From the NCBI RefSeq assembly GCF_017745095.1, contig NZ_JAGHZZ010000025.1:2214-66213 (forward strand): 64,000 bases of DNA, read 5' to 3'. A program made the position numbers and the translations under genes. Under the pieces are notes generated by a model that made no database searches, was not told where the DNA came from, and saw only the letters and a list, made by a program, of their open reading frames with translations. Of this stretch, positions 3,852-52,263 are shown piece by piece; positions within the stretch are counted from its first letter, which is position 1, and each line of letters opens with the position of its first letter. This DNA is from Sporocytophaga sp. (GTDB lineage: Bacteria; Bacteroidota; Bacteroidia; Cytophagales; Cytophagaceae).

Positions 3852-3864
3852 TATGTAAGCATGC

Positions 3865-4581: not shown

Positions 4582-4587
4582 TACTCT

Positions 4588-4893: not shown

Positions 4894-4913
4894 TACCTTC
4901 TTAATGAACTAAC

Positions 4914-5279: not shown

Positions 5280-5286
5280 ATTTATT

Positions 5287-7808: not shown

Positions 7809-7857
7809 TACTCTGAATACAATATATAATCACCTAACCCTTAATAATTAGAAAATA

Positions 7858-9504: not shown

Positions 9505-9524
9505 GTAAGGAACTAACTCCATTT

Positions 9525-9597: not shown

Positions 9598-9650
9598 TTT
9601 ATTTAAATGCGATAAAACATATCTTTTAAACTGGAAAAGAAAATTTAAAG

Positions 9651-10514
9651 ATGCAAATCGTGAGTAAAGGATTTGAATATGATCAGAACTTCAGGACAAC
9701 CATGTCCACAGCAGTTTTCAGAAAACTAAGCGAATTCATAAATGCATATTGCGGCATAAAAATGCCTCCTGAAAAAAAGATACTTCTCGAAAGCCGCCTT
9801 AACAAGAGGCTCAGACATCTGAATATGAAATCCTTTGATGAATATTGTAATTTTTTATTCAGCCCCACAGGGAAGAGACAAGAGCTTATTCATATGATTG
9901 ATGTTGTTACCACCAATAAAACTGATTTCTTCCGCGAAGCTATGCACTTTGATTTTATGCGTGATCATATATTTACTCAATTTAAAGAATCGAAAATTAG
10001 CAAGGCAAATATATGGAGCGCGGGGTGTTCTTCAGGAGAAGAAGTATATACCATATGCATGGTGCTTGAAGAATTAAGAGAGTTTGGATCTGGAGTAGAT
10101 TATTCGGTTACAGGTACTGACATTTGTTCTCAAGTACTGGAAAAAGCAGCATTAGCAGTTTATCCTGAAGTAAGAACAATGCCGATTCCATTAGCAATAA
10201 AAAGAAAATATTTTTTAAAAAGCAGAAATGCTACAGAAAAGACAGTTAGGATTATACCAGAGCTTAGAGGAAAAACAAACTTTATGAGGTTGAACTTCAT
10301 GGATGAAAGCTTTGATGTACCTAACATATTCGACATCATATTCTGCAGAAATGTGCTTATCTACTTTGATAATCCTACTCAGGAAAATGTATTAAAAAAA
10401 CTTTGTTCCAAACTTAAGGTTGGAGGTTATCTTTTCATAGGACATTCTGAATCACTAACTAATATGAATCTCCCCTTGATTCAGGTAAAACCCACGATAT
10501 TCAGAAAGATTTAG
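9651..10514 (+). CDS. cheR: chemoreceptor methyltransferase CheR (module A)
   Basis: A 287-residue CheR, which transfers methyl groups from S-adenosylmethionine to glutamates of the MCP. Visible are the N-terminal all-helical domain with YCGIKMPPEKK, the DVVTTNKTDFFRE block, the SAM-binding segment WSAGCSSGEEVYT near residue 123, and FCRNVLIYFD. The annotated start adds ~17 residues before the ATG that aligns with the shorter module-C protein, so translation may start at the internal ATG near 9702. The gene ends 2 bases before cheD, so coupling is likely. Confidence 0.94.
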   Translation: MQIVSKGFEYDQNFRTTMSTAVFRKLSEFINAYCGIKMPPEKKILLESRLNKRLRHLNMKSFDEYCNFLFSPTGKRQELIHMIDVVTTNKTDFFREAMHFDFMRDHIFTQFKESKISKANIWSAGCSSGEEVYTICMVLEELREFGSGVDYSVTGTDICSQVLEKAALAVYPEVRTMPIPLAIKRKYFLKSRNATEKTVRIIPELRGKTNFMRLNFMDESFDVPNIFDIIFCRNVLIYFDNPTQENVLKKLCSKLKVGGYLFIGHSESLTNMNLPLIQVKPTIFRKI

Positions 10515-10516
10515 GA

Positions 10517-10957
10517 ATGATTAAAAAATACTTGTATCCGAAAGAAATCTATGCGAGCGAAGAGCCTACAGAAGTTACTACTGTTTTAGGTAGTTGTGTT
10601 TCTGTTTGCCTTTTTGATGCTGAATTGAAAACAGGCGGGATTAATCATTTTATGCTACCGGATACTACAAAACTTCATAGAAGCGGACAATATGGGATTT
10701 ACTCTATTCCTGAACTCATACAGAGAATGATTCTTTTGGGATCTAAGCCGTCCAGCTTACAGGCTAAGATTTTTGGAGGCCATATGATTAGTAATGTTCT
10801 TCCTCAATTCAATGTAGGATTAAGGAATATATCTTTGGCCAAACGTATACTTCATGAATACGATATCCCTATAATTAAATCTTGCGTCGGAACTCCTTTT
10901 GCCCAAAAGGTCGTTTTTTATACTGCCACAGGTAATGTACTTGTAACGCCTATTTAA
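10517..10957 (+). CDS. cheD: chemoreceptor glutamine deamidase CheD (module A)
   Basis: A 146-residue CheD. The catalytic cysteine lies in [12 protein letters not shown] (residues ~24-35) and the catalytic histidine in GGINHFMLP, matching the Cys/His pair of the family. CheD deamidates receptor glutamines and, in some bacteria, interacts with CheY phosphatases. It starts 2 bases after cheR and is followed after 19 bases by cheB, so it sits in an adaptation sub-operon cheR-cheD-cheB. There is no sign of decay. Confidence 0.94.
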
Positions 10958-10976
10958 TAATCAGAAATTTGAAGTA

Positions 10977-12032
10977 ATGAAAAAAACAAGAGTACTGATT
11001 GTTGACGATTCAGCTGTGATAAGGCAGACACTGAAAGAAATTATCGATTCTGATCCAGAACTGGAGGTGCTGGCGACGGCCGGTGATCCTTATTTTGCTG
11101 TTTCAAAAATTGCGGATGAAATTCCTGATGTAATCACACTCGACATTGAAATGCCAAGAATGGATGGGCTTACGTTCCTAAAAAAAATAATGTCTCAGCA
11201 TCCTATCCCTGTTGTGATTATATCAAGTCTTACACAGGAAGGAACGGAAAGTGCTATAAAGGCGCTTGAATTAGGTGCTGTTGAAGTTTTACATAAACCT
11301 CAACTAAACTCAAGAAGGTTTATTGAAGAATATAAAACGAGGATCTGTGAGGTGATAAAAGCTGCAGCTAAATCAAAAGTAAGCAGAAAAAAAATATATC
11401 CAACTGAGATCCCTATTACTAATAATATTGAAAAAATTAAAAGCTCAAACAGCCTCCTTAAAACGACAGAAAAAGTAATTGCTGTCGGCGCTTCAACAGG
11501 CGGAACGGAAGCCATAAGGAGCTTTCTGGAATACTTCCCTGCTGATGCTCCTGGAATTGTTATCGTTCAGCATATGCCAGAGCTCTTCACAAAATCATTT
11601 GCCACCAGGCTTAATAGTCTATGCAAAATAGATGTAAAGGAAGCTGAAAATGGGGATAGTGTTATTCGCGGAAGAGCATTGATTGCTCCTGGAAATAAAC
11701 ATATGCTATTAAAAAGAAGCGGAGCCAGGTATTTTGTAGAACTAAAAGACGGACCTCTTGTGAACAGACACAAGCCATCTGTCGATGTGCTATTCAGGTC
11801 TACTGCAACGAACGCAGGTAAAAACAGCATTGGCATCATTATGACCGGAATGGGCTCAGATGGAGCCAAGGGATTACTGGAAATGAAAGAAGCAGGGGCT
11901 TTGACATTAGCACAAGATGAGAAAAGCTGTGTTGTTTTCGGCATGCCAAAGGAAGCAATCAAGTTGAACGCTGTAGAGAAAATACTACCCTTGGATCAGT
12001 TGGGTAACTTTGTATTAAAGCATCAGTTCTAG
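10977..12032 (+). CDS. cheB: chemoreceptor methylesterase CheB (module A)
   Basis: A 351-residue CheB with an N-terminal receiver domain (acidic residues in IVDDSA, phospho-acceptor D56 in LDIEMP, K in VLHKP) and a C-terminal methylesterase domain with the catalytic triad S173 (GASTGG), H199 (VQHMP) and D295 (GMGSDG). It removes methyl groups from the MCP and is activated by CheA. It is the last gene of module A. A hairpin at 12054-12076 separates it from the convergent protease gene. Confidence 0.96.
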
Positions 12033-37931: not shown

Positions 37932-38314
37932 CATCTCCCAAGAAGGCCATAAACAATAGATAATAAGTTATTCAAAGAATCATACCAATCCTTTATAAGA
38001 GCGAACAACAGGTAAACACTATTTTGAAACTTGTAATTGATCTGCTGGTGACCAAACCTAATCACATAATTCTTCTTAAAATTAAACTTTCAAAAAATAC
38101 AAATATTGCATTTATCTAAAGATTTATATTTACTTTATTCATCACTTTAACACAATAAAATTTATTTTTTATAAAAACTACTTTAAAGGAATGAACTCAT
38201 CCCTATAAATGATAAAGTTCATCTTAAACTAGGACTTTTTCATATAACCTCAGATTTCTTTCGGCGTAAAAGTAAATTAATAAAAGAAAGAAATAACCAA
38301 TAAGAAAGTAAGAG
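37932..38314. other. 383-base gap before module B
   Basis: AT-rich sequence that should carry the promoter of the second chemotaxis region. No convincing core element, terminator or coding remnant was seen. Confidence 0.5.
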
Positions 38315-40171
38315 ATGAGCTTCGGCAAAAAACAAGGATTTACATTAACCCTGCTTATATCTGCGTGTTTAATTTTATACTGTACTCAAAAGTTCTCCAA
38401 GGAGACCGGAGAAAAAATAAATAGACTCCTATCTGTATCAGAAAAGGAACAAATCATTTTAGATTATCCAACAAATACCATTAGAAATCATTTCTCCGAC
38501 ATTGATAAAGAATTTACAGAAACAACAGATGCAATTAGGCTCACTAGATTTTTTATAAATGAAAATTTATTAAACACTATATCTGAAATAAAAAGTCTTA
38601 ATCAAGACATAAAGAATACAATATCATCTTCAAAAGACAATAACATTCTTCTATCCGACATAGAAAACATTGAAGAATTAAAATCAAAGTTTAACATCCT
38701 ATCAAGCCAGCTGCTAGAAGCTTACTCACAAATCCAATTATTAGAAAACATACTTTTTGTACTTTATGTAATCACAATCCTTTTAATTATTAGTATTTCA
38801 CAGATAACATATACAAGAGGAATAAAAAAAGAAATTAATAAAATCACTAATACATTAGATAAACTCGCGAAGGGGGATATAAGTAAAATTGAAACGATTG
38901 TACCTAATGAGTTTAAAAACATCCATGTAACGATAAATACTATCATTGATAATCAGGCAAATCTAGCATCCTTTGCAGAAAGCATCGGAGATGGTAACTA
39001 TCAAGTACATTATAATAGACTTGGTGATAATGATAAAATAGGAATTGCTTTACTTGGTATGTGTGACAAACTTCAAAAAGTAAATGCAGAAGAAAAGAGG
39101 AGAAACTGGGCTAATGAAGGATTGGCAAAATTTTCAGAAATATTAAGAAATGAAAGTAATGAAAAATCACTATCCGATAAGCTGCTTGTAGCTCTAATAA
39201 AATATATCAATGCTAATCAAGGCACCATTTACCTTAAATATGAAGAAGGTGAAAAATATTTCCTAAAACTAATTTCGTCTTATGCATGGGATAGAATGAA
39301 ATATGAAGACAAAGAAATAGAGATGGGTGAAGGCCTTATAGGTCAGGCAGCAATGGAACGAGAATATGTTTATCTAACTGATATTCCGGAAAATTTTATC
39401 CGGATAACTTCAGGGCTCGGTGAGGCTCTCCCCTCCAGTGTATTGATTATGCCATTATGTACTAACACAGATATATTAGGTATTATGGAATTTGCCTTTT
39501 TCAGAAATCTTGAAAAGTATGAAATAGACTTTCTAGAGAAAATAGCAACCAGCATTGCTACAACAATATCCTCTGTAAAAACAAATGAACAGACTCTTAA
39601 ACTACTTGGAGAATCAAGAGAAATGACTAAGGAAATGAAACTTCAGGAAGGAGAACTTATAAAGCAAGCAGAAGAACTAATGTCAAAAGAGGAAACTCTT
39701 TTGAGAAGCATGAAAGAATTGGAAGCTGTAAAATCTTCCTTAAGCGACAAACTGGAAGAAGCAAAAGAAGAGATGAAGCAACAGATTAAGGAAATAGAAA
39801 TTGAAAAACTTAAAAATGAAGGAATCCTAGAAGGTTGTGTTGATGCTGTGATAACATTTGACAAAAAAGGAACAATCGAATTCTTCAATAAGGCTTCTGA
39901 AGAAATATTCGGATATGGACGAAATGAAGTATTAGGAATAAACATCAATCAATTAATCAATCTCTATTTAGATGAGAATAGCGGAGACTATTCTGCATTT
40001 TATATTGAAAAAAACAACTTCAAAAAACCTATAAGCATAAGAACTGAAATCTCGGTCAAAAGCAAAACATCTGGTGAAATTCCTGTTTTAATCACTTTAT
40101 CAAAGACTGTTATTGAAGGCAAATTCTACTTTACAGTCTTCATCCAGAGTATAGCCGTGGAGCTTTTCTGA
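38315..40171 (+). CDS. HAMP-GAF-PAS membrane sensor without output domain (module B)
   Basis: A 618-residue paralogue of the sensor at 2025. Transmembrane segments lie near residues 10-26 and 145-167. HAMP, GAF (with GEGLIGQAAMEREYVYLTD), a long glutamate/lysine-rich coiled coil and a C-terminal PAS domain follow, and the chain ends FIQSIAVELF. The cytoplasmic part is much more similar to the module-A protein than the periplasmic part, which suggests different ligands and the same downstream partner. There is no kinase or methyl-accepting domain. It heads the second chemotaxis region, 40 bases before a CheZ-like gene. Confidence 0.82.
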   Translation: MSFGKKQGFTLTLLISACLILYCTQKFSKETGEKINRLLSVSEKEQIILDYPTNTIRNHFSDIDKEFTETTDAIRLTRFFINENLLNTISEIKSLNQDIKNTISSSKDNNILLSDIENIEELKSKFNILSSQLLEAYSQIQLLENILFVLYVITILLIISISQITYTRGIKKEINKITNTLDKLAKGDISKIETIVPNEFKNIHVTINTIIDNQANLASFAESIGDGNYQVHYNRLGDNDKIGIALLGMCDKLQKVNAEEKRRNWANEGLAKFSEILRNESNEKSLSDKLLVALIKYINANQGTIYLKYEEGEKYFLKLISSYAWDRMKYEDKEIEMGEGLIGQAAMEREYVYLTDIPENFIRITSGLGEALPSSVLIMPLCTNTDILGIMEFAFFRNLEKYEIDFLEKIATSIATTISSVKTNEQTLKLLGESREMTKEMKLQEGELIKQAEELMSKEETLLRSMKELEAVKSSLSDKLEEAKEEMKQQIKEIEIEKLKNEGILEGCVDAVITFDKKGTIEFFNKASEEIFGYGRNEVLGININQLINLYLDENSGDYSAFYIEKNNFKKPISIRTEISVKSKTSGEIPVLITLSKTVIEGKFYFTVFIQSIAVELF

Positions 40172-40211
40172 TTAATCATATACTAGTACAATCTCCTTAC
40201 AAATACTGAAT

Positions 40212-40931
40212 ATGCTAGAACTTGAAGAGGGCAATATAATTAAGATTATTATAGAGTTACTTGATGGTAACAAAATACAAATACTAAAACTTCAAAAATG
40301 TTCCTCTGAATATTTTCTCTTAATAGGAAGTCTGATTAAAAATATTCCATTACCTAATATTTCAGACAAAACAGTAGTTGTTGATCAAACCGTTATAAGC
40401 TGCATCATAAAAGACTTGCAATATCAAGATATTATGAGACAGAAACTTGAGCACATCGAAACAATTGATGATATGTTGCTTAAGGAGCTTAAACAAAGAA
40501 CCACTGGTAATGGTGGCATAGTCTTTAGCAGCGTCATTCCAGAAATAACTTCACTTAATATAGCCCAATTGAAGTTGATTTTAGATGAATATAAATTGAT
40601 AATAGACAACATACAAAAGAATTTACAAAAATTAGAAGCACATCAGATAGAGGCCACTTCAGTTAACGTATCAAAAAATTTAGAACACAATCAACTGACC
40701 AATACTTTGATCATGGACATTATCGAGAGGCATGATTTAATTTCTCAACTATCTCTGAAATATAATTTCAAAAGAAAAAAAGACGTAAAAGGAGTTGTGC
40801 TAAAATTAATAAATGTCTACACAATGCAAAGCGAGAGAGACGTTTTCAACCAGACATTTGAAAGAGAAATAAATAATTGCCAGGACAATCAATTTGAAAA
40901 TAATCAAGAAAACAATATTGAGTTTTTTTAA
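40212..40931 (+). CDS. CheZ-like putative CheY-P phosphatase (module B)
   Basis: A 239-residue paralogue of the protein at 3865. The DxxxQ motif is kept as LQYQDIMRQKLEHIETIDDM (near residue 74), the VYTMQSERDV block recurs near residue 207, and the chain ends ENNIEFF. These three blocks are the best-conserved parts between the two paralogues, which supports them as functional: catalytic site, fold element and CheY-binding tail. The gene follows the sensor and precedes a STAS gene by 14 bases. The function is inferred. Confidence 0.58.
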   Translation: MLELEEGNIIKIIIELLDGNKIQILKLQKCSSEYFLLIGSLIKNIPLPNISDKTVVVDQTVISCIIKDLQYQDIMRQKLEHIETIDDMLLKELKQRTTGNGGIVFSSVIPEITSLNIAQLKLILDEYKLIIDNIQKNLQKLEAHQIEATSVNVSKNLEHNQLTNTLIMDIIERHDLISQLSLKYNFKRKKDVKGVVLKLINVYTMQSERDVFNQTFEREINNCQDNQFENNQENNIEFF

Positions 40932-40945
40932 GAAGAAGTATAAAA

Positions 40946-41266
40946 ATGGAGAAGATAGAAATAAAGACCTTTACAAAAGATAACTCTAATATTGACATAC
41001 AAATTAAAAGAGATGTTTCACTAAAGCACATCCAAAAGCTATATAGTGAACTACACAAAATTAAAGATTCATACAAAAAATATACTATATCATATTCAGA
41101 AGTAAATAATATTGATCCTGCCGGATTTCAGATCCTATATTCTTACATTAAGCTCTTACAAAAAAGGAGAAAAGAGATATACATAGCAGATCAATTCAAT
41201 GATGAGTTGATAAAGATTTTAAACTGGGCTGGTCTTTTAGATATTCTATATCTAAAAAATAAATAA
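40946..41266 (+). CDS. STAS-domain protein (module B)
   Basis: A 106-residue STAS protein. The loop that normally carries the phospho-serine reads NNIDPAGFQILYSY, with alanine at the phosphorylation position, so it cannot be regulated by phosphorylation there. It lies between the CheZ-like gene and cheY, as in module A. Confidence 0.75.
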   Translation: MEKIEIKTFTKDNSNIDIQIKRDVSLKHIQKLYSELHKIKDSYKKYTISYSEVNNIDPAGFQILYSYIKLLQKRRKEIYIADQFNDELIKILNWAGLLDILYLKNK

Positions 41267-41322
41267 GCTATAGATTTCATACAGACAAAGACAAACAAAA
41301 GAAATTATAATATTATCAAATC

Positions 41323-41688
41323 ATGAAAAAGACGATTCTTATAGCGGATGATTCCGAGAGCGTAAGGGAAGTTGTAAGTTACACATTGATTAATGCAGGA
41401 TATGAAGTGCTTATAGGAGTTGATGGTGAAGACGCATTGAAGTATCTGAATGGCACGGAAATTCATCTGGTATTGACGGATCTACACATGCCAAAGATGG
41501 ATGGTATAGCACTTATAAAAGAAATAAGATCGAAACCTGAATATAAATTTATCCCTATCCTCTTCCTAACCACAGAATCACTATCTTCTAAGAAAGAAGA
41601 GGCAAAAGCTGCTGGTGCTACAGGTTGGATTGTTAAGCCTTTTGTGCCCGAGAAACTTATAGAAACGATACAGAGGGTAATAAGATAA
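41323..41688 (+). CDS. cheY: CheY-like response regulator (module B)
   Basis: A 121-residue receiver with an intact active site: D9-D10, phospho-acceptor D53 (TDLHMPKMDG), T83 (FLTTES), K105 (VKPFVP). It is very similar to the module-A protein. Its own cheA neighbour is destroyed (see 41689), so its phosphate donor is presumably the CheA of module C encoded 4.4 kb downstream, or the CheA of module A. Confidence 0.93.
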   Translation: MKKTILIADDSESVREVVSYTLINAGYEVLIGVDGEDALKYLNGTEIHLVLTDLHMPKMDGIALIKEIRSKPEYKFIPILFLTTESLSSKKEEAKAAGATGWIVKPFVPEKLIETIQRVIR

Positions 41689-41830
41689 TTGAAAAATTCA
41701 AGCTATATTTTTGATGAGGCAACAGGTTTAATCACCGAACTGGAACTTGTAGCTTTACTTCTGTATAATAGTAAGAAAGATAAATCATTATAGAGGATCT
41801 CTTAAAAAAATATGCATACCCTGAAAGTCC
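41689..41830 (+). pseudogene. cheA: cheA remnant (Hpt region), module B
   Basis: Directly after the cheY stop, a frame starting at TTG reads 34 residues that align with the N-terminus of the module-C CheA: YIFDEATGLITELELVALLL against VFFEEATTLINDLERVSLLL. It ends at a stop near 41793. After a frameshift the sequence around 41812-41827 still encodes MHTLK, the core of the histidine motif. Everything after that (the kinase and CheW-like domains) is gone. The module-C cheA starts at the corresponding point after its cheY. Confidence 0.85.
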
Positions 41831-41887
41831 ATTGATCGTTCGTAATACTTACAATCGATTTAAATTTACTTAGTACAAATCAATTTT

Positions 41888-42257
41888 ATGAACGATGAAA
41901 ATTTAACGACTCATTCTTACCTCTCATTTAAGCTAGCAAACCAAAATCACCTGATTATCTGTTAGGCATTATTAACTTAAGAGGTGATGCTCTTCCCATA
42001 GCTAATACAAGAATAAAATTGGGCCTTGGTGCTGTGGCTGACACAATAATTAGCTGTATAAAATGATCTTGAATCTTGAGCTAAATGGTCAAAAAAAATT
42101 ATGATAGCCTTGACCGATTCGATTTGCTAATTATTCTAAGTAAATAAACAATTAGTACTCACATAGGAAGTAAATAGAAGCCAGAATTCATTTCAGGGAT
42201 GTATAATCCAAATGAAAGCTTTATCTAAAGATGGATATCAACAAGCCATTTTCATCC
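41888..42257 (+). pseudogene. cheW: cheW remnant, module B
   Basis: An ATG at 41888 begins a frame reading SYLSFKL, the usual CheW start. After an internal deletion and frameshift the sequence reads PKSPDYLLGIINLRGD, then TRIKLGLG, ending at a stop at 42064. Further pieces continue in other frames: MILNLELNGQ near 42064, then GSK-stop-KPEFISGM near 42165, and MDINKPFS near 42232. Each piece aligns in order with the intact CheW at 48133. It is a clear multi-lesion pseudogene. Confidence 0.88.
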
Positions 42258-42365
42258 GAATAGCTCTCTATTTTACAGGAAAATACCATGCTTTGAATTC
42301 TTGATACTTATAATTCTAAATTCTTAAATAAACCACTTATATATAACTATTAACCCTGATTATCT

Positions 42366-44021
42366 ATGAAAATACGTCATCAACTTTTTATTGGAAACGG
42401 TCTAGTGTTGATCATGATCATCGCCCTGGCTACAGTTTCTTATAATAGCATCAATTCCCTTATAGCAACTTCAAAATGGGTAGATCATACTCACGAAGTT
42501 ATCGAAAGAGCAAATTCGTTAGGAAAATTATTAATCGATATGGAAACAGGAGAGCGAGGCTTTTTGCTCACAGGTGAGGAAGAATATTTGGAACCATACA
42601 ATGAAGGAAAGAAAAGATTTAAAACAGTGCTTAACGAAGTAAAGCAGCTTGTCAATGATAATCCTGAACAAGTGGCAAGGTTTGAAGCGGTTGATAATCT
42701 CGAGGCTCAATGGCATGAAAAGACCGGTAATGTTGAAATCAGTGCCAGAAGAAAAATTAATGAAGGAACTGCGAGTATGGACGATCTGATGGTATTGATA
42801 AATAAAAAATCAGGCAAACAAACTATGGATCAGCTACGGGTTAAACTTGAGGAAATTGTTAAAATCGAAAAAGGGTTGATGGATAAAAGAACACAGGAAT
42901 CAGATGAAACTGCAGCCACTTCAATATCTACTTCATTGATAGGTGCAACACTAGGATTTATTATATGCCTGGGAGTAGCAATCTGGATTGTACTTTCAAT
43001 ATCTAGCTCTTTAAAAATTGCGAATGAAGCGATCAAATCAGTTGCAGAAGGTGATCTTTCTTTGAAGATAGATACAAACAAAAAAGACGAAGTTGGGGAA
43101 ATGCTTAAGCACCTGCAGGAAATGGTTAATAAATTAAATGAAACACTAACATTTATCAGCACGGCTGCCGAAAGCATTAGTTCTGCCAGCAAACAAATGA
43201 GTTCTTCTTCTCAGCAGCTTTCTGAAGGAGCTACTGAACAAGCCGCTTCTGCAGAAGAAGTTTCAACTTCTATGGAACAGATGACCAGTAACATTCAGCA
43301 AAGCACTCAGAATGCACAGGAGACAGAAAAAATTTCCCTTAAGGCAACAGAGGATGTAAGTGAAGGAGGCAAATCAGTTAGCATGACAGTGATGTCAATG
43401 AAAGAAATTGCTCAGAAAATTTCAATTATAGGTGAAATTGCAAGACAAACGAATTTGCTGGCTCTTAATGCAGCTGTGGAAGCGGCAAGAGCTGGTGAGC
43501 ATGGTAAAGGATTTGCAGTTGTAGCTGCAGAAGTACGAAAACTAGCTGAAAGAAGTCAGCAGGCTGCCATCGAAATAGATGCTCTTTCAAAAACCAGTGT
43601 AACAATTGCTGAAAAGTCCGGAAAAATACTTGAGCTGATCGTTCCCGATATCCAGAAAACTTCAAGGTTAATTCAAGAGATTACTGCATCCAGCAATGAG
43701 CAGAATTCCGGAGCTGAGCAAGTAAATAGTTCTATTCAGCAACTCAACAGGGTTATACAGAATAATGCTGCTACCGCTGAAGAGATGGCGGCTAGCGCTG
43801 AAGAACTGGAAGCCCAAGCAGCTTCTTTAGAAGAAACCATTTCATTCTTTAATCTCGGACATGACAAAGGTAAAAAATACAATTCAGGGGATAATGGATA
43901 TGCAAAAAAGAAGAGCTTTTCCAAACAAGCATCTACAGGTCAAACTGGAAAATCTATAAATGGCGTAGCTATAAAACTTGATAATGGTTCGGTTTCCGAC
44001 GCAGATTTTACAAAGTTTTAA
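42366..44021 (+). CDS. CHASE3-type methyl-accepting chemotaxis protein with C-terminal pentapeptide (module B)
   Basis: A 551-residue receptor: transmembrane helix ~9-29; a periplasmic CHASE3-type domain (~35-180) with [16 protein letters not shown]; second transmembrane helix ~190-212; HAMP (~212-265); signalling domain (~270-500) with tip [19 protein letters not shown]; then a ~45-residue glycine/lysine/asparagine-rich linker ending DFTKF. The terminal pentapeptide fits x-aromatic-x-x-F, as in the module-A receptor. It is the only intact MCP in modules B and C, and must use CheA, CheW, CheR and CheB from module C or A. Confidence 0.94.
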
Positions 44022-44093
44022 ATAATATAGCAGATATTGAATAGCCTGAATAATCATTCAATATCTGCTTTCCTGCCCTTTAAATTTTACCCG

Positions 44094-45248
44094 ATGAAAA
44101 AATGTTTAATTATTTTAAGCCTTGCCATGGCAAGCTTAAAAGGTAATGCGCAAAATTCTTCTCCTTTTACTTTCAGGACTGAAATCACAGGTGATTTGAT
44201 AAGCAATATGCAAGGTGGAAGAAAAAGCGGCCACAGCTATGTGGGTAAAATAGATCTATCTTTGGGATTGTCAACTGAAAAAGCCGGATGGTTTAAAGGA
44301 GGAAAATTGTTCCTGCATGCCATCAATGCTCACGGTGGAAATCCATCGGCTCGTTATGTGGGAGATATACAGCCTGTATCAAGAATAGAAGCAACAAACC
44401 GGATAAGTCTGTTTGAATTTTGGTACAGACAGGATATAGGCAAATTTTCGGTGCTTTTTGGTCAATTCGACATGAATTCAACCTTCGCAGTAAATGCTAC
44501 GGCCGGCAATTTTCTAAATACCTCCTTCGGAATGTATCCTAGTATAGCATTGAATGTACCTTTATCTATCTATCCATATGCCACACCATCTTTATATGCT
44601 AAATGGAAGCATTCTGAAAAGCTTGCATTCCAGGCAGCGGTGTTCGATGGATCTCCCTTAAAGTTTCAGGATAATCTTAATAACCTTAAGTGGCAAATTG
44701 ATGCTAAAAAGAGATTATTCTCAACATTTGAAATTCAGATGAAAGAAATTAAGGATTCGGTAGTAAAAGGAAATTATAAAATTGGAGGATATTATCATAA
44801 TGGAGATTTCAGAGATGTTTCCGATTCCTCAAATTCTGTGAATGGAAGTTATGGGATTTATGTCACTATGGACAGACTAATCATTGCTGAAAATTCTGCC
44901 GATAACCAGGGAGTTACTGCATTTTTACAATCAGGCTCTAGTCCAGGGAAAATCAATTTAGTAGATTTTTACTTAAGCACGGGGTTGATATATACCGGTA
45001 TACTTCCTGCCCGTTCTAATGATATACTTAGTCTGGGATTCGTATATTCATCTATAAATAATTATCTTCATCAAGCTTATCCTATCAGCTATACTCAAAG
45101 CAGAAGTTTAATTGAGTTGAATTATAAGGCAAAGTTTGGGAATAACTTTATAGTTCAGCCAGACTTACAATATATAATTAATCCTGGTGCAAATCCTGCA
45201 TTTAAAAATTCTCTTGTAGGTATTTTAAGGGTATCCCTTGTTTATTAA
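44094..45248 (+). CDS. OprB-type carbohydrate porin
   Basis: About 384 residues from the ATG at 44094, which gives a normal signal peptide ending GNAQ; an upstream TTG at 44037 is less likely. The beta-barrel pattern fits the carbohydrate-selective porin OprB family: FWYRQDIGKFSVLFGQFDMN early, YPYATPSLYAKWK, and a terminal strand ILRVSLVY. It admits sugars across the outer membrane. It lies between the module-B MCP (72 bases upstream) and the module-C STAS gene, an unusual place for a porin, and suggests that the pathway monitors sugar uptake (inference). Confidence 0.82.
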   Translation: MKKCLIILSLAMASLKGNAQNSSPFTFRTEITGDLISNMQGGRKSGHSYVGKIDLSLGLSTEKAGWFKGGKLFLHAINAHGGNPSARYVGDIQPVSRIEATNRISLFEFWYRQDIGKFSVLFGQFDMNSTFAVNATAGNFLNTSFGMYPSIALNVPLSIYPYATPSLYAKWKHSEKLAFQAAVFDGSPLKFQDNLNNLKWQIDAKKRLFSTFEIQMKEIKDSVVKGNYKIGGYYHNGDFRDVSDSSNSVNGSYGIYVTMDRLIIAENSADNQGVTAFLQSGSSPGKINLVDFYLSTGLIYTGILPARSNDILSLGFVYSSINNYLHQAYPISYTQSRSLIELNYKAKFGNNFIVQPDLQYIINPGANPAFKNSLVGILRVSLVY

Positions 45249-45300
45249 AGTATACAAGTTGCTCTTAATAATATAATGAAGAAAGAGCTGTATTTGTTAA

Positions 45301-45331
45301 GATCTTCGAAACATCTAGTAATACGAAGATC
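45301..45331. repeat. inverted repeat between porin and STAS genes
   Basis: GATCTTCG (45301-45308) pairs with CGAAGATC (45324-45331), loop of 15. No T run follows. It could be an operator or an mRNA hairpin marking the boundary between the porin and module C. Confidence 0.55.
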
Positions 45332-45383
45332 AGTGGCGCAATTAATGCCGAAAAATATTTAGATTTTTTTTAACCTAACTAAT

Positions 45384-45689
45384 ATGGAAAAATTTAATAT
45401 TCAAAAAAAGATATCTGACAATAAAGAGACCATTGATATTTTAGTTAGCGGGGACCTTAGCATTAAACATTCGGAAATTTTTTTCAAAGAATTGAAAGAA
45501 ATAAAAAAGGTACATAAGACTTACAATATTCTTCTTATGGATATAGCACGAATAGATATTATGTGCTTACAAGTACTTATCTCATTCATGATTTATCTCC
45601 GGAATAATGATAAAGAAGTCAACCTCAAAAAAGAGTTGAGCGAAGAAATGAATCAATTACTTCGTAATGCTGATTTGCTAACTAACTAA
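45384..45689 (+). CDS. STAS-domain protein (module C)
   Basis: A 101-residue STAS protein. The phosphorylation loop reads ARIDIMCLQVLIS, with methionine at the phospho-serine position, so phospho-control is lost. It resembles the STAS proteins of modules A and B and lies 21 bases before the altered cheY. Confidence 0.75.
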   Translation: MEKFNIQKKISDNKETIDILVSGDLSIKHSEIFFKELKEIKKVHKTYNILLMDIARIDIMCLQVLISFMIYLRNNDKEVNLKKELSEEMNQLLRNADLLTN

Positions 45690-45710
45690 TATAAAGCAGG
45701 TAAATAATAT

Positions 45711-46067
45711 ATGAAAAAGACGATTCTAATAGCTGATGATTCGGAAAGCGTAAGAGAAGTAGTTTCTTTTACTTTGATAAATGCGGGATATAATGTGCTG
45801 GTAAGAGAAGACGCAATGAAGTTTCTGGATGGGAAGGAGATTCATCTTGTCATCAAAGATCTTCACATGCCTAAAAAGGACGATATTGCTTTAATCAAAA
45901 AGATCCGCGGAAAAAGCGATTACCAGTATGTGCCGATCTTATTCCCTACTATAGAGTCTCAGGCAGCAAAAAAGGATGAAGCTAAAGCAGCGGGAGCAAC
46001 AGGATGGATTGTAAAACCATTCGTTCCTGAAAAATTAATTTCCACCATTGAAAAAGTTATTAGATAA
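45711..46067 (+). CDS. altered CheY-like receiver (module C)
   Basis: A 118-residue receiver, closely related to the module-B CheY but changed. Compared with it, three residues are missing around position 32 (VREDAMKFL in place of a longer GVDGEDALKYL segment), and the phosphorylation loop reads KDLHMPKKDD instead of TDLHMPKMDG. FLTTES has become FPTIES. The five catalytic residues remain (D9, D10, D50, T80, K102). The nearly universal glycine after the MD pair is aspartate. It may be non-phosphorylatable, slow, or in early decay. Its stop overlaps the cheA start by one base. Confidence 0.85.
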   Translation: MKKTILIADDSESVREVVSFTLINAGYNVLVREDAMKFLDGKEIHLVIKDLHMPKKDDIALIKKIRGKSDYQYVPILFPTIESQAAKKDEAKAAGATGWIVKPFVPEKLISTIEKVIR

Positions 46068-48136
46068 TGGACAGATTTAAAGCAGTTTTCTTTGAGGAAG
46101 CCACCACACTCATAAATGATCTGGAAAGAGTTTCCCTTTTATTGCACAATAATCCCTCTGATAGTTCGATCATAGAGCAGATCTTCCGTATCATGCATAC
46201 GTTGAAAGGTAACAGCACAATGTTCGGCTTTTATCGGATCGGAGATTTTACACATCACTTTGAAACGCTCTATGATTATATTAGGGAAGGTAAAATGTCT
46301 GTAACAGATAATGTCCTTAACATAACATTTGCTTCTGTCGATCATCTGCGGGTGCTGCTTGCAGATGTAGAGTTGGAAAACCCAGTCCATAAAATTAATC
46401 ATGAAAACCTGATCCATGGTCTCATTGAGGTTCTGAACGGAGCTTCTGTTGAGGGAAGCATAAAAAGCCATTCTTCCGATCATACAATTGAGGATAAAGT
46501 TTCGGATACTCCCACTTACTGGCTGAAATTTGTTCCTGAAAAGGGTTTGGTGAGAAAAGGGGCTAATGTATTATTCCTTCTCGATGATCTGTCTCAGCTT
46601 GGCGCAACTTATACAGTTTCCAATATCGAGCGCTTACCTGATTTTAAAAAACTCGATCCTGCAGATATATATATACACTGGGAAATTTATGTTTCAGGAA
46701 ATATAACTGAAAACAGCATCCGGGACGTTTTCATGTTCGTGGAAGAAGACTGCGAGCTTGAGATAAGAAAGATTTCAGAAACAAACTTGCTGGATCAGGA
46801 TAGTTTTACTGCTATTGCCCGAGATATTTCTTTAAGCATTGATGAAAAGATTTCAAAGTTTAGTGGATTGGTAAATAATTCTTCTTCTAAAAATAGAATG
46901 GAGGAAGTAAGAAGTAAGATAGAAAAAGCCAACGAGAAATCTATAGTTACCTCTAAAGACAATTCGATTTCAAGTATCAGAGTGGCTTCTGAAAAGCTGG
47001 ATGAATTGATGAGTCTTGTAAGTGAGCTTGTCACTACTCAGGCCAGGTTAAATCTTGTTTCAGATCAGATTGCTTCCTCTGAACTAATAAGTATTTCAGA
47101 AAATATTGAAAAAATCACCCGTCAACTAAGAGATAATACTTTTAGTATTTGTCTTATTCCTATAGAAAACTTATTGGTGCGATTTCAACGATTGGTGAGA
47201 GATCTATCAACTCAATTGAATAAGGACGTTGTGTTTGTTTCTGAAGGTACAGATACAGAACTGGACAAGAATATTATTGAAAACCTGGCAGATCCTCTGA
47301 TGCACATCTTCCGGAATTCACTGGATCATGGAATTGAATCGGGAGAAGAACGAGTAAAGAAGGGAAAACCTGCCCAAGGAAAAATCTTATTAAAAGCATT
47401 TTATTCCGGGAATAGTGTGATTATTCAGATCCGTGATGATGGAAAAGGAATTGATCCGGAAGTGATCAGACAAAAGGCCATCAGCAAAGGATTGATCACC
47501 GCAGATCAGAATCTGGATCGGCGTCAGATCTTCGATCTTATTTTTCTTCCGGGATTTTCTACAGCGGAGAAAGTGACCGAGGTTTCTGGTCGTGGAGTAG
47601 GAATGGATGTAGTGAAAAGACAGATTACTGAAATAAGGGGTGAAGTGGAAGTAGAGTCCGTAATCAACGAAGGAACTACCATTAATATTAAGCTTCCTCT
47701 TACGCTTTCAATCATTGACGGAATGCTTGTTAAAATCAATGCTACACATTTTGTAATACCATTAGGTAATGTGGATAAATGTTTTGAAGCAAAGCATGAA
47801 GAATTTGTAAATAAGATCAATGACCTTATAATTCTGGACGGAGAGCAGGTGCCTTTTATATATCTGAGAGATGAATTTGATATAAAGGAAAATTGTCCTC
47901 AACTACATCAGGTGGTGGTAGTGAAGCAGGACGATAGACGGGTAGCTTTATCGGTCGATACTATTATTGGAGAATATCAGGCAGTATTAAAACCACTTGG
48001 AAGGTTGTACAAAAATGTGGACGTTATTTCAGGAGCGACGATCTTAGGAAATGGAGAGGTTGCTCTTGTTGTCGATCCCAACAGAATCATTAAGGAATAT
48101 ATATTTAATCAAATAAATAACGAAGTTTTACAATGA
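46067..48136 (+). CDS. cheA: chemotaxis histidine kinase CheA (module C)
   Basis: A 689-residue intact CheA. Hpt domain with H44 in MHTLKGNSTMFG; P2-like domain (~150-240) with FLLDDLSQLG; dimerisation helix SIRVASEKLDELMSLVSELV; ATP-binding boxes HIFRNSLDHG, DDGKGID and GRGVGMDVV; C-terminal CheW-like domain. Same architecture as the module-A kinase. It is the only intact kinase in the B-C region and presumably serves the module-B receptor and CheY. Its end overlaps cheW by 4 bases. Confidence 0.96.
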   Translation: MDRFKAVFFEEATTLINDLERVSLLLHNNPSDSSIIEQIFRIMHTLKGNSTMFGFYRIGDFTHHFETLYDYIREGKMSVTDNVLNITFASVDHLRVLLADVELENPVHKINHENLIHGLIEVLNGASVEGSIKSHSSDHTIEDKVSDTPTYWLKFVPEKGLVRKGANVLFLLDDLSQLGATYTVSNIERLPDFKKLDPADIYIHWEIYVSGNITENSIRDVFMFVEEDCELEIRKISETNLLDQDSFTAIARDISLSIDEKISKFSGLVNNSSSKNRMEEVRSKIEKANEKSIVTSKDNSISSIRVASEKLDELMSLVSELVTTQARLNLVSDQIASSELISISENIEKITRQLRDNTFSICLIPIENLLVRFQRLVRDLSTQLNKDVVFVSEGTDTELDKNIIENLADPLMHIFRNSLDHGIESGEERVKKGKPAQGKILLKAFYSGNSVIIQIRDDGKGIDPEVIRQKAISKGLITADQNLDRRQIFDLIFLPGFSTAEKVTEVSGRGVGMDVVKRQITEIRGEVEVESVINEGTTINIKLPLTLSIIDGMLVKINATHFVIPLGNVDKCFEAKHEEFVNKINDLIILDGEQVPFIYLRDEFDIKENCPQLHQVVVVKQDDRRVALSVDTIIGEYQAVLKPLGRLYKNVDVISGATILGNGEVALVVDPNRIIKEYIFNQINNEVLQ

Positions 48137-48630
48137 GCATAGAAAATCTGAATGTAAGTAATTCTTACTTATCATTTAAGTTGGAAAACGAAACTTTTGC
48201 TGTAACTGTCGAAAGGGTACATGAAATATTGGAAATACCCACGGTAACAAAAGTTCCTAAATCTCCAGACTTTATGACAGGAGTAATTAACCTTAGAGGT
48301 AATGTATTGCCTGTAATTGATACACGCATAAAATTTGGACTGGCTAAAACTGATTTTACAATCGATTCCTGCATCATAGTTCTTTCTATCATGATGGAGA
48401 ATGAACAGATCACCATTGGAGCATTGGTGGATTCGGTTCAGGAAGTACTTGAGCTTTCATCAGAAAAAATACTGCCATCTCCTGCATTAGGAAGTAAATA
48501 TAAAGCTGAGTTTATTCAAGGTATGATAAAGAACGATGAACATTTCATCATGGTCCTTAATATTGATGAAGTTTTTTCTATCAATGAACTTCATCAGATG
48601 AAAGAAAACACATCTGAAACCATTATTTAA
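48133..48630 (+). CDS. cheW: chemotaxis coupling protein CheW (module C)
   Basis: A 165-residue CheW with SYLSFKLENETFA, VTKVPKSPDFMTGVINLRG and VLPVIDTRIKFGL. It is coupled to cheA by an ATGA overlap. It is the template against which the pseudogene at 41888 was recognised. Confidence 0.95.
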   Translation: MSIENLNVSNSYLSFKLENETFAVTVERVHEILEIPTVTKVPKSPDFMTGVINLRGNVLPVIDTRIKFGLAKTDFTIDSCIIVLSIMMENEQITIGALVDSVQEVLELSSEKILPSPALGSKYKAEFIQGMIKNDEHFIMVLNIDEVFSINELHQMKENTSETII

Positions 48631-48657
48631 TTTTTAAACCTTTGAAATTATACAACT

Positions 48658-48779
48658 ATGAAAAATTGATTTTCGAATTCCTTTATTTGACTGGGATGTC
48701 CGGAGTTATTTTTTACATGGGAGATAATTCCTCTAATCAATTAAGTGATTTTATCCACTATGGTTGTTTGGTTTTATAA
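48658..48779 (+). pseudogene. possible remnant of an MCP N-terminus (module C)
   Basis: This lies between cheW and cheR, where module A has its MCP. After an ATG (48658) and an apparent frameshift, the sequence reads LIFEFLYLTGMSGVIFYMGD then a polar stretch, ending at a stop at 48777. It resembles the first transmembrane region of the module-[24 protein letters not shown], in length and in the shared L-I, F, FY-x-G positions. The match is short and hydrophobic, so it is suggestive only; synteny gives it weight. Confidence 0.4.
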
Positions 48780-48827
48780 ATACCAAAATTTCTTATCTGC
48801 TGTGTTATTCTAAAAATTAATAAGATT

Positions 48828-49661
48828 ATGGTTTCAGTAATAAAAATGTCTAATGAAGAGTTCAGAAAAATGAGCTCTATGATTTATTCGGATTATGGAA
48901 TTAAAATGCCACCGTCAAAAAAAACATTGCTTGAATGCCGGCTTCAAAAACGATTGAACGCCCTTAATTTATATTCATTTAAGGAATACTGTGATTTTGT
49001 TTTCAGTCCCGAAGGACAAAGGACGGAACTGATTCAAATGATCGATGTAGTGACTACCAATAAAACCGATTTCTTCAGAGAGTCAATTCATTTCGATTTT
49101 CTTAGCAATCATTGCTTTCCTGAGATGACTAAGGGTCGAGATGCCGGACGTCCATTACGGATTTGGAGTGCAGGTTGTTCTAGCGGAGAGGAACCCTACA
49201 CCATCGCTATGGTTGCGAGTGAATTTGCAGAAAATCAACCTTTTAATTTTTCCATCTTTGGAACTGACCTTTCCACAGAGATACTTAAGAAGGCAGCTAT
49301 GGCTATCTATTCGGAAGAAAGAACCAGTGTGATTCCTATGGTATTAAAAAGGAAATATTTTCTAAGAGGAAAAGACGATAAGAACAAAACATATAGAATA
49401 ATTCCGCAATTGAGGCAGAAGCTTTACCTCCAAAGATTGAATTTCATGGATCATTCATATAATGTTCCGTTTAATTTTGATATTATCTTTTGCAGGAATG
49501 TTTTGATTTATTTTGATAAAGAGACTCAGGAAAAAGTCATCAACCGTTTATGCGATAAGCTTAATAAAGGAGGTATTTTCTTTTTGGGACATTCTGAATC
49601 TATTACGGATATGAATGTACCTCTGCAACAGATTAAACCTACCATATTCAGAAGAATTTAA
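48828..49661 (+). CDS. cheR: chemoreceptor methyltransferase CheR (module C)
   Basis: A 277-residue CheR with YSDYGIKMPPSKK, DVVTTNKTDFFRE, SAM-binding WSAGCSSGEEPYT and FCRNVLIYFD. It should methylate the module-B MCP, whose C-terminal DFTKF peptide may tether it. All key segments are present. Confidence 0.94.
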   Translation: MVSVIKMSNEEFRKMSSMIYSDYGIKMPPSKKTLLECRLQKRLNALNLYSFKEYCDFVFSPEGQRTELIQMIDVVTTNKTDFFRESIHFDFLSNHCFPEMTKGRDAGRPLRIWSAGCSSGEEPYTIAMVASEFAENQPFNFSIFGTDLSTEILKKAAMAIYSEERTSVIPMVLKRKYFLRGKDDKNKTYRIIPQLRQKLYLQRLNFMDHSYNVPFNFDIIFCRNVLIYFDKETQEKVINRLCDKLNKGGIFFLGHSESITDMNVPLQQIKPTIFRRI

Positions 49662-49693
49662 GAGTATTGTTTTTAACTGATCAAGTAGTGAAT

Positions 49694-49915
49694 ATGAAAT
49701 TATGCGATGAAGAATTAATTCAGGAATTGCAATTGAGATTGTCAGAAAAACAGCCCTCCTTAAAGGAGATGAATGATCTTACGGGGCAAATTCAGCAATT
49801 GGATAAGAAGCTGGAGCAGCCGGAAACTATGAAGAGCAATCTTCTTTCTAATATTCGCAACGAGATCATTAATCCATTCACTAATGGGGGAAAGTTTCAA
49901 CAGGGATGTGAATGA
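49694..49915 (+). CDS. stub of a histidine-kinase-like protein between cheR and cheD
   Basis: A 73-residue product from the ATG at 49694; an in-frame TTG at 49667 is also possible. It is a charged coiled coil followed by SNLLSNIRNEIINPF, which resembles the H-box of a histidine kinase (xxSHEIRTPL) with asparagine in place of histidine. After that it runs into a short unrelated tail and stops. It looks like the truncated start of a kinase-like protein. It is coupled to cheD by a 4-base overlap, so its translation may only serve to bring ribosomes to cheD. Module A has no counterpart. Confidence 0.5.
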   Translation: MKLCDEELIQELQLRLSEKQPSLKEMNDLTGQIQQLDKKLEQPETMKSNLLSNIRNEIINPFTNGGKFQQGCE

Positions 49916-50382
49916 ATAAAATTTTAACATATTACCTTTATCCATCTGCGTTATTTGCAGATAATCGTCCTCATGAAGTAATTACTGTCTTAGGAACGTG
50001 CGTGGCAGTTTGTCTTTATGATCCGGTACTTAAAATAGGAGGTATCAATCATTATATGCTTCCATTATGGAACGGCGAAGGATTACCTTCCCCTAAATAT
50101 GGAAATATTGCGATTGAAAAGCTGCAGGAAAAAATGATTTGTCTTGGCAGCCAAAAGAAAGATCTGCAAGCTAAAATTTTTGGTGGTTTAGGAAAGTCTA
50201 CCACTGCCAATGTTCTCAATATCGGGCAGCGGAACTGTAAACTTGCTAAAGTAATGTTGAAACAGATGCAGATACCAATTGTAGCAAGTCATTTAGGAGG
50301 AGGTTTAGCCCGTAAGTTGAAATTCTATACTCATACGGGTGAAGTTCATATGAAATTTGTTAAGTCTGATGATATTGTCTGA
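49912..50382 (+). CDS. cheD: chemoreceptor glutamine deamidase CheD (module C)
   Basis: A 156-residue CheD. The catalytic cysteine is in VLGTCVAVCLYD and the histidine in GGINHYMLP. It starts inside the end of the kinase-like stub (ATGA overlap) and is followed by cheB after 18 bases. Confidence 0.94.
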   Translation: MNKILTYYLYPSALFADNRPHEVITVLGTCVAVCLYDPVLKIGGINHYMLPLWNGEGLPSPKYGNIAIEKLQEKMICLGSQKKDLQAKIFGGLGKSTTANVLNIGQRNCKLAKVMLKQMQIPIVASHLGGGLARKLKFYTHTGEVHMKFVKSDDIV

Positions 50383-50400
50383 CCTTTTAAATTGTAACCC

Positions 50401-51465
50401 GTGAAAAATAAAATAAAAGTTTTGATTGTTGATGATTCTGCGGTGGTGAGGAAAATGTTAACAGAAATTCTGAATTCTGATTCTACCATCGAGGTGATGG
50501 CCACGGCTTCTGATCCTTATTTTGCGGCAACGAAAATACAGCATGAAGTCCCTGATGTGATTACGCTCGATGTTGAAATGCCCAAAATGGATGGGCTGAC
50601 ATTCTTGAGAAAAATTATGTCTCAGCATCCGATTCCTGTAGTGATTATTTCCAGTCTTACAGATAAAGGTACAGAGACAGCGATAAAGGCATTAGAATAT
50701 GGAGCTGTAGAAGTAATTACAAAACCCAAATTGGAATCTGACGAGTCGTGGGAAGATTCAAAAATGAGGATCATCGATATTATTAAAGCGGCTTCACTAT
50801 CAAAACCAGGACGTAAAACCCAGTTCGAGAAGGTGGCGCCAAAATTATCTGCGGATGCCATGATTAGTTCTTTCAGTCCTACCAGTATGATCAAGACAAC
50901 GGAGAAGGTAGTTGCTGTCGGTGCTTCTACTGGCGGAACTGAAGCGATCCGTGTGCTGCTCGAAGCGATGCCCCTGGATGCTCCGGGTATTGTCATTGTG
51001 CAACATATGCCCGAATTGTTTACCAAATCATTTGCCTTAAGACTCAACGAGCTTTGCAGGATCACAGTGAAAGAAGCGGAGAATGGGGATAGTGTTTTAA
51101 GGGGAAGAGCATTAATTGCCCCAGGGAACAAACATATGTTGCTTAAAAGAAGTGGGGCAAGATATTATGTAGAAGTGAAAGATGGCCCATTGGTAAATAG
51201 ACACAAACCTGCGGTAGATGTGCTGTTCAGATCTACTGCCCGTTACGCTGGCGCTAACAGTATCGGAGTATTACTTACAGGAATGGGTGATGACGGTGCA
51301 AAAGGGTTATTGGAAATGAAACAAGCAGGGGCAAAAACCATTGCTCAGGATGAGAAAAGCAGTGTGGTGTTTGGAATGCCTAAAGAAGCTATAAAATTAG
51401 ATGCCGCGGATAAAGTACTTTCACTTGAGCTTATTGCTTCTCAAATATTAAAGCTAACGTTATAG
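50401..51465 (+). CDS. cheB: chemoreceptor methylesterase CheB (module C)
   Basis: A 354-residue CheB that starts at GTG, the only in-frame start that gives the complete receiver domain (KVLIVDDSA). Receiver phospho-acceptor D57 (LDVEMP); catalytic triad S177 (GASTGG), H202 (VQHMP) and D298 (GMGDDG). It ends the second chemotaxis region. Confidence 0.96.
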
Positions 51466-51510
51466 AATGTCATGAAGAATTTTGTTATAAGAATATTTAA
51501 TGTTCAGTAA

Positions 51511-51804
51511 GGTATTATAAGCTATCATGTCCAACTAAAATTTAAAGGGAGGACATCTAAATCAGTAGAAACACAACTTGCTATATACCCTAATCCAGCT
51601 CATAACAAAATCAGCACTTTCAGAAACCAAAATAGTTCTGATGCAACTTATATGATTATGGATATAACCGGACGTGTGCTAATAGAAGAAACAGTTGGTG
51701 CATATAGTGAAAAAAATATCGAATTCACTGAAGCAGGAACTTACCTAGTAAAGATTATGTCAGTGTCTGGCTTGTCGGAAATAAAGAAAGTTGTGGTTTA
51801 TTAA
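51511..51804 (+). pseudogene. orphan T9SS type A sorting domain
   Basis: An open frame of ~97 codons without an ATG near its start. It reads TQLAIYPNPAHNKISTF, then YMIMDITGRVL, TEAGTYLVKIMS and a basic end KKVVVY before the stop. This is a complete T9SS C-terminal sorting domain. The passenger protein that should precede it is missing; an in-frame stop lies just upstream of 51511. It is the tail of a deleted secreted protein. Confidence 0.8.
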
Positions 51805-51886
51805 AATCAAAGAGAGGATGTTTGGAGCACGGGGCATCTTGACTCCGGACGATTAATGCTATCAGAATCACATCTACAAACTATCC

Positions 51887-52213
51887 TTAATCAATCCCAA
51901 AACAAGAAATCATTTGAATCTGAGATGCAGGACAAGGCAGTCCTAACTCAGTAACAGGCATAAAAAAGTATTCTCCCGGTGCAAGCTTTCCATCAACTGT
52001 TACTTCAAAAAAACCTTCGGAAAGCTTCTTAAATTTTAATTTAATATTATTAGGAATAATTCTTATTTCTCCCCTTCTGCTTGTTCTTGAATAAAGGAAC
52101 AGCCTGCTTCCTTTTGAAGCCTCTCCTCTGACTATTTTCAAAGATTTTGCAGGATCTGAATGTATAGTAAATTTAATATAAAACTTCAATAAACTATTCG
52201 AATCAATACGCAT
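51887..52213 (-). CDS. C-terminal fragment of an unknown protein
   Basis: The frame encodes 108 residues from an ATG at 52213 but stays open upstream to about 52281, with sensible protein sequence (DTDTYLKPAGDKSS) up to about 52260. It therefore looks like the 3' end of a longer gene that was cut at about 52260. It is beta-rich, with LAPGEYFFMPV near the end. No family is recognised. Confidence 0.5.
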   Translation of the reverse strand: MRIDSNSLLKFYIKFTIHSDPAKSLKIVRGEASKGSRLFLYSRTSRRGEIRIIPNNIKLKFKKLSEGFFEVTVDGKLAPGEYFFMPVTELGLPCPASQIQMISCFGID

Positions 52214-52263
52214 CGAAGACTTGTCTCCTGCAGGCTTTAAATAAGTATCTGTATCTATATTTT

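Follow-up and report, generated by a model that had tools for sequence, protein, structure and literature searches.

We describe a composite chemotaxis gene cluster in a 64,000-nucleotide stretch of DNA from Sporocytophaga sp., a member of a genus of gliding soil bacteria (genome size 6.63 Mb; assembly GCF_017745095.1, contig NZ_JAGHZZ010000025.1, positions 2,214-66,213 of the forward strand), referred to below as the window. The cluster (38315-51465, with all of its genes on the + strand) has an upstream half, B (38315-44021), that contains an intact CheY, an intact methyl-accepting chemotaxis protein (MCP) and dead cheA and cheW genes, and a downstream half, C (45384-51465), that contains intact CheA, CheW, CheR, CheD and CheB genes and an altered CheY. 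The best explanation, which we judge to be probable, is that a block of genes was duplicated and then partly lost, leaving one pathway spread across both halves that has been exchanged between species. This reading draws on gene content, the sisterhood of the two copies, a common deletion junction, genome inventories, purifying selection and an island of low divergence, all of which were observed. A first-pass annotation, made from the letters of the window, had placed the open reading frames (ORFs) of this region where we find them. Its description of B was confirmed by tblastn and shuffling controls, and that of C by domain, motif and CheY alignment data. A separate module A (2025-12032), for which it had claimed a full gene set, is also complete in the window as judged by ORFs and tblastn. 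Comparisons within the genus used four genomes, the window's own and three congeners (G001, G002 and G003), and all four carry the composite.

The remnants in B were located by tblastn searches of the module A, B and C proteins against the window DNA, and both sit between CheY-B and MCP-B. The dead cheA (41710-41826) is 51% identical to CheA-C (E 4e-5), matches CheA codons 9-47 and contains stops; the rest of cheA-B was not found between CheY-B and MCP-B. The dead cheW (41888-42225) retains its start, carries several stops and, in the window species, an internal deletion, and at 41941-42225 it is 44% identical to CheW-C (E 7e-16) and 36% identical to CheW-A (E 2e-13). As a control, 200 dinucleotide-preserving shuffles of the interval 41689-42365 were scored. 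CheW-C (score 181, shuffle maximum 56), CheW-A (162, maximum 55) and CheA-C (93, maximum 81) each exceeded all 200 shuffles, and no signal was obtained in this interval for CheA-A (51/200), CheR (76/200), the porin (92/200) or CheD (169/200). Both genes are dead in all four genomes and their remnants align in every one of them, the cheA remnant running through one deletion junction, with small indels, into the start of cheW. The cheW lesions in G002 differ from those in the other genomes of the genus. The dead stretch (41689-42340) is 95% identical to its counterparts in G001 and G003, as compared to 89-90% for CheY-B on its left and 95% for MCP-B on its right; this high identity may reflect either recombination or a retained regulatory role.

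The genes that survive include a kinase with an Hpt histidine and a receptor with an MCP signalling domain. CheA-C (46067-48136) has Hpt, dimerisation, HATPase and CheW-like domains with H, N, G1 and G2 boxes, and MCP-B (42366-44021) has a CHASE3-HAMP-MCPsignal architecture (PF00015, E 1.4e-33). In CheA-C, CheR (48828-49661), CheD (49912-50382) and CheB (50401-51465), all of the motifs looked for are present, under motif definitions that we assume to be correct, and CheW-C (48133-48630) is intact. CheY-B (41323-41688) possesses the acid pocket and the phospho-acceptor Asp, Thr and Lys residues, whose roles we take to be those of other CheY proteins, and CheY-C (45711-46067) retains these residues. 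The ratio of nonsynonymous to synonymous divergence (dN/dS) for CheY-B, which is intact in all four genomes, is 0.03-0.05 between the window and its three congeners and 0.03-0.10 over the six genome pairs; the gene is thus kept under purifying selection without a CheA of its own copy. Over the same six pairs dN/dS is 0.06-0.11 for MCP-B and 0.06-0.15 for CheA-C. CheA-C, CheR, CheD and CheB have changed mostly at silent sites, and for CheW-C the changes are too few to judge. An aromatic pentapeptide, which presumably resembles the CheR/CheB tether of other MCPs, ends both MCP-A (7858-9504; EYEKF) and MCP-B (DFTKF), and the MCPs of the outgroup G022 discussed below end similarly.

Phylogenetic trees of STAS, CheY, CheA and CheW that include the remnants, as the first-pass annotation had proposed, unite B and C. 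A concatenated alignment of STAS, CheY, the CheA N-terminus and CheW comprised 19 rows, with STAS missing in five: 13 of 28 prepared outgroup loci, window A, B and C, G003 B, G002 C and G001 A. B and C group at 99/99 in the resulting tree, and trees joining B with A or C with A are each ~17 log units worse and rejected by the approximately unbiased (AU) test (p 0.0037 and 0.0035, respectively), which supports the earlier claim that the two are related by duplication. The single-gene and leave-one-out trees used 10 of the 28 outgroup loci together with window A and B, G003 B, G002 C, G001 C and G001 A; window C was left out because its CheY is eroded. Each single-gene tree recovers B with C (CheY 77/76, STAS 88/90, CheW 74/100, CheA 87/99; none of these branches starred), three of the four leave-one-out sets retain a starred branch, and the set lacking CheY gives 92/94. 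A 39-row CheY tree also joins them, weakly (87/44), and module A stands next to B and C in the concatenated tree, likewise weakly (69/73). B and C are therefore each other's closest relatives among the sampled rows, and we rejected both an acquisition of C from another lineage and a hybrid of two chemosensory classes. Two findings had been named beforehand as fatal to a duplication, namely trees placing the B and C genes as unrelated and remnants that never align with cheA or cheW in related genomes; instead, the trees unite the copies and the remnants align in all four genomes. An early CheW tree, in which CheW-C grouped neither with CheW-A nor with G022, was replaced, as it held a single remnant (the short G002 one, on an extremely long branch), and a CheR tree was not used because of one extremely long row (L046_R_12601).

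The extent of the duplication is indicated by G022 (locus L122), an outgroup from a different family of the same order. It carries a single run of two sensor-like genes, CheZ-like, STAS, CheY, CheA, CheW, MCP1, porin, MCP2, CheR, histidine-kinase-like (HK-like), CheD and CheB, and B-C has this order with one sensor (present once, in the B half) and a second STAS-CheY-CheA-CheW block after the porin. The G022 CheD is 57% identical to that of C versus 45% to that of module A, and its CheB 75% versus 72%. Among 95 che loci compared for gene order, a porin between two MCPs occurs only in G022, and two STAS-CheY blocks around a porin occur only in the Sporocytophaga locus L036, in addition to the window and its three congeners. 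L036 comes from a metagenome-assembled genome whose CheA is 95% identical to that of the window; it most likely represents the same genome as G003, and probably the same one as L117. The porin of the composite (44037-45248, OprB family by Pfam) is 36% identical to the one that follows MCP1 in G022. The MCP2 of G022 also has a counterpart in the composite, as the spacer 48628-48827, between CheW-C and CheR, contains a relic of a 4HB-type MCP gene, ~31 codons of its beginning (48663-48755). Against the N-termini of the G022 receptors this spacer scores 57 (MCP2) and 53 (MCP1), with 0/300 shuffles reaching either score (maximum 45), as compared to 2/300 shuffles each for the module A MCPs of the window and G001 and 149/300 for MCP-B. 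The relic occupies the same place as MCP2 in G022 and is common to all four genus genomes, which supports the possible MCP remnant that had been noted in C.

The first-pass annotation had seen the full gene order twice in this region, but this is not borne out, as the single G022 cluster already holds the sensor, CheZ-like gene, porin, two MCPs, CheR, HK-like gene, CheD and CheB, so that only STAS-CheY-CheA-CheW need have been duplicated. Two complete tandem modules, produced by whole-module duplication or by acquisition of a second cluster and then deprived of different parts, would account for the presence of STAS-CheY-CheA-CheW, intact or dead, in both copies and for the MCP that each copy has or had downstream. 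However, no significant remnant of a sensor or CheZ-like gene precedes C and none of CheR, CheD or CheB follows MCP-B: in the 135-bp spacer 45249-45383, none of sensor, CheZ-like, CheR, CheD, CheB and MCP matches significantly (the lowest being CheB, 12/200 shuffles), and MCP-B and the porin are separated by only 15 bp (~70 bp with the first ATG as the porin start). These spacers are short and a full deletion would be traceless, yet the porin and both MCPs of the single G022 cluster explain the unduplicated genes without a second module, and we regard two complete modules as unlikely.

Loss of different parts from the two copies has proceeded unevenly across the genus. B has lost cheA and cheW in all four genomes, whereas on the C side CheY alone is affected, and only in the window species. 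CheY-C is intact in the three congeners (98-99% alike); in the window it lacks three residues and has substitutions at five columns that are invariant in 11 other aligned CheYs. Its amino-acid-changing to silent changes relative to G002 number 9:11, as compared to 4:31 for CheY-B relative to G001 (Fisher p 0.008) and 6:26 for CheY-B relative to G002 (p 0.06). STAS-B (40946-41266) is open only in the window, and is disrupted by a frameshift and stops in G001, a frameshift in G002 and a stop in G003. The last two lesions could be sequence errors, since the one in G002 falls within an A-rich sequence encoding many lysines and G003 has frameshifts in several genes. The proposed reciprocal loss therefore holds for the CheA and CheW of B, but the matching loss of CheY from C is confined to the window species, and the other three genomes disrupt STAS-B instead.

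That the remaining genes together would make up about one working pathway, as the first-pass annotation suggested, agrees with the gene content, and an indication that both halves are needed comes from G002 (rated 99% complete and 2% contaminated). A single G002 contig spans the place where module A would lie and does not contain it (window positions 1754 and 12047 correspond to G002 339894 and 341133). Genome-wide, we found one strong CheA match and two weak partial ones (E 1.6e-5 and 2.7e-4), one MCP, which is the orthologue of MCP-B, one free-standing CheW, in C (a second CheW-domain match lies within CheA-C), one CheZ-like gene and two close CheY genes (B and C); CheR- and CheB-domain matches total seven and four, respectively, and neither is unique to the composite. 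Because no other receptor, CheA or CheW was found in G002, MCP-B must use C there if it signals through CheA. It has also to be considered that MCP-B, CheY-B and the CheZ-like protein are served by the CheA and CheW of module A, with C a decaying, receptor-less remnant. Module A is indeed intact in the window genome and CheY-C is eroding there, but G002 retains the composite with no module A or other CheA, CheW or MCP found, which contradicts service by module A alone, and CheA-C, CheR, CheD and CheB remain mostly silent in their changes; we consider this distinctly unlikely. The proposed dependence on both halves is thus favored by the G002 inventory and qualified by the window, which has an intact module A as well. 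A further alternative is that CheY-B and MCP-B have CheA-independent roles, such as phosphorylation of CheY-B by another kinase, and that the composite is a neutral relic. Stand-alone response regulators are common, and the coupling of MCP-B and CheY-B to CheA-C is predicted from sequence, but MCPs signal through CheA and CheW and the low dN/dS of MCP-B opposes this idea, which we find very unlikely.

The composite lies in an island of low divergence (38082-52256) relative to all three congeners. Synonymous divergence (dS) was determined for window ORFs of >=150 aa with >=60% identity and >=60% coverage. For the seven + strand ORFs whose starts fall at 42-51.5 kb, the median dS is 0.17, 0.03 and 0.19 to G001, G002 and G003, respectively, whereas window ORFs outside B-C and module A have medians of 0.81 (12 ORFs), 0.50 (23) and 0.88 (17), and even the minima among the latter (0.45, 0.30 and 0.56) lie above all values inside. 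The sensor (dS 0.27) and CheZ-like gene (0.36) have the same values to both G001 and G003. The breaks in nucleotide alignment fall near the edges of the cluster, at 38082 and 51553 for G001 and G003, and at ~42303 and 52256 for G002. This island suggests that the composite was exchanged between species, most likely by recombination, and the dead genes of the window, G001 and G003 and the MCP2 relic of all four genomes are consequently not independent evidence of age. The upstream part of the G002 composite is a divergent allele (dS to the window of 0.84 for the sensor, 0.67-0.68 for the CheZ-like gene and 0.41 for CheY-B) that shares the cheA junction. Most simply, the deletion of cheA is therefore older than the divergence of these alleles, and likewise of the present alleles of the genus.

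Several points weigh against a block duplication followed by dependence on both halves. The CheW remnants of G001 and G003 score at least as high to some outgroup CheWs as to CheW-C, and the CheA tree joins CheA-C to CheA-A (84/77, unstarred) rather than to G022. This grouping, like the weak placement of module A beside B and C in the concatenated tree, argues against B-C and G022 being simple orthologues. Because only one outgroup with a porin and two MCPs was found, it is conceivable that two incomplete clusters from the same lineage became fused. Independent cheA deletions with nearby breakpoints could also have occurred, and the deaths of cheW-B and MCP2, unlike the cheA deletion, are not datable by the old G002 allele. 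The part of G002 downstream of ~42.3 kb was recently recombined, and its present state may be young. Module A could act as partner of the B proteins in three of the four genomes, and that MCP-B and CheY-B work with CheA-C is what we infer from their sequences.

The history of the composite under a block duplication can be outlined as follows. A single Bacteroidota-type chemosensory cluster of sensor, CheZ-like, STAS, CheY, CheA, CheW, MCP1, porin, MCP2, CheR, HK-like, CheD and CheB genes would have been enlarged in the Sporocytophaga lineage, where duplication placed a second STAS-CheY-CheA-CheW block between the porin and MCP2. Most of the upstream cheA would then have been deleted, and the upstream cheW would have died and MCP2 been lost at undated times. 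For the resulting pathway we infer every protein contact, phosphotransfer step and output. In the simplest circuit, MCP-B would signal through CheW-C and CheA-C, CheA-C would phosphorylate CheY-B, and CheY-C where it is intact, and CheR, CheD and CheB of C would adapt MCP-B; dephosphorylation of CheY may fall to the CheZ-like protein of B. Loss would be ongoing, of CheY-C in the window species and of STAS-B in others, while the composite is exchanged between species by homologous recombination. The stronger proposition, that the composite is an obligate two-copy pathway in which, since the loss of the upstream cheA, receptor and CheY of one copy have depended on the other copy's kinase, that it has been swapped between species as a cassette with low-divergence edges near the cluster ends, and that it has outlived the intact paralogue in at least one species, is in our judgement evenly balanced. 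The pathway probably controls gliding or some other behaviour on surfaces: GldL was found in all five of the genomes searched (the four of the genus and G022) and FlhA in none, which points to gliding rather than flagella. The regulator PorX, presumably CheY-like, reportedly binds PorL, which we take to correspond to GldL, in Porphyromonas; this is a lead for the output and not evidence.

Complementary loss can leave both copies of a gene needed, as in duplication-degeneration-complementation. The composite resembles this scheme in its complementary loss after duplication, but differs in that whole genes of a bacterial operon block are involved, whereas the scheme usually concerns regulatory sub-functions of one gene. 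The composite shares its genes and their order, STAS and the HK-like gene among them, with other Bacteroidota che clusters (Z-STAS-Y-A-W-(MCP)-R-HK-D-B), from which it is set apart by two STAS-CheY blocks around a porin. Hybrid chemosensory systems are treated in an account (PMC9321776) that mentions an E. coli hybrid and proposes that the Arcobacter F7 kinase uses F3-derived CheY and CheZ. The Arcobacter hybrid is similar in that kinase and response regulator come from different ancestral gene sets, one of them partly kept, but there different classes met by transfer, whereas here the partners are adjacent sister duplicates within one cluster (PMC9321776). As far as our literature search shows, the re-assembly of a pathway from sister copies within a single cluster adds a new form to the known hybrid pathways; the titles and abstract openings of open-licence PMC papers gave no account of such a composite cluster, which is weak evidence that it is unpublished. 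The one-block outgroup and the four composite genomes, one of which yielded no further pathway of this kind, form a natural series for pathway re-assembly after duplication in which two redundant genes, CheY-C and STAS-B, are caught during loss in different species, and the specificity between kinase and regulator of diverged sister copies becomes directly testable.

Of the other genes, the sensor (38315-40171) has GAF and PAS domains (Pfam GAF_2 and PAS_9) and is 41% identical to its module A counterpart, and STAS-B (Pfam STAS) and STAS-C (45384-45689, the second copy in the duplicated block; Pfam STAS_2) match only below the cut-off. Module A matches lie in broken frames in G001 (cheD and cheB) and G003 (cheA and cheR), where decay and sequence error are indistinguishable. 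Promoter-like sites were at chance level (60 versus a mean of 56.7) and terminator-like sites exceeded it (14 versus 7.2, sd 2.8); neither result was used. The CheZ-like protein (40212-40931) is assigned by motif alone: D73 and Q77, four residues apart and invariant in nine aligned proteins, correspond to what we take to be the Asp/Gln catalytic motif of CheZ. Membership by profile was rejected, as no Pfam match was obtained up to E 0.1 and CheZ was not among 13 PDB-profile matches up to E 1. The window protein has 239 aa, whereas outside Sporocytophaga 11 of the 12 loci inspected encode 565-602 aa and the twelfth, L042, which lies at a contig edge, 398 aa; stretches around LQYxD and YTM are common to them, as is an ELF or FF ending.

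A by-product of this work is a histidine-kinase-like protein without the phospho-acceptor histidine that is encoded in che clusters of many Bacteroidota. In the composite its gene, between cheR and cheD, is truncated to an 82-aa ORF (49667-49915); ~60 homologous codons are left in the window, G002 and G003 (L036, L117), and the gene is long elsewhere (285 aa in G001). Asn replaces the phospho-acceptor His (e.g. L118:13582-14436). Among 96 sources, surveyed at loci picked by CheA similarity, 84 have both cheR and cheD, and 78 of these have the HK-like gene between them, with Asn in all 78. Six loci are without it, L081 additionally has a His-bearing kinase there, and four further loci, in which both neighbours were not seen together, carry the Asn form.

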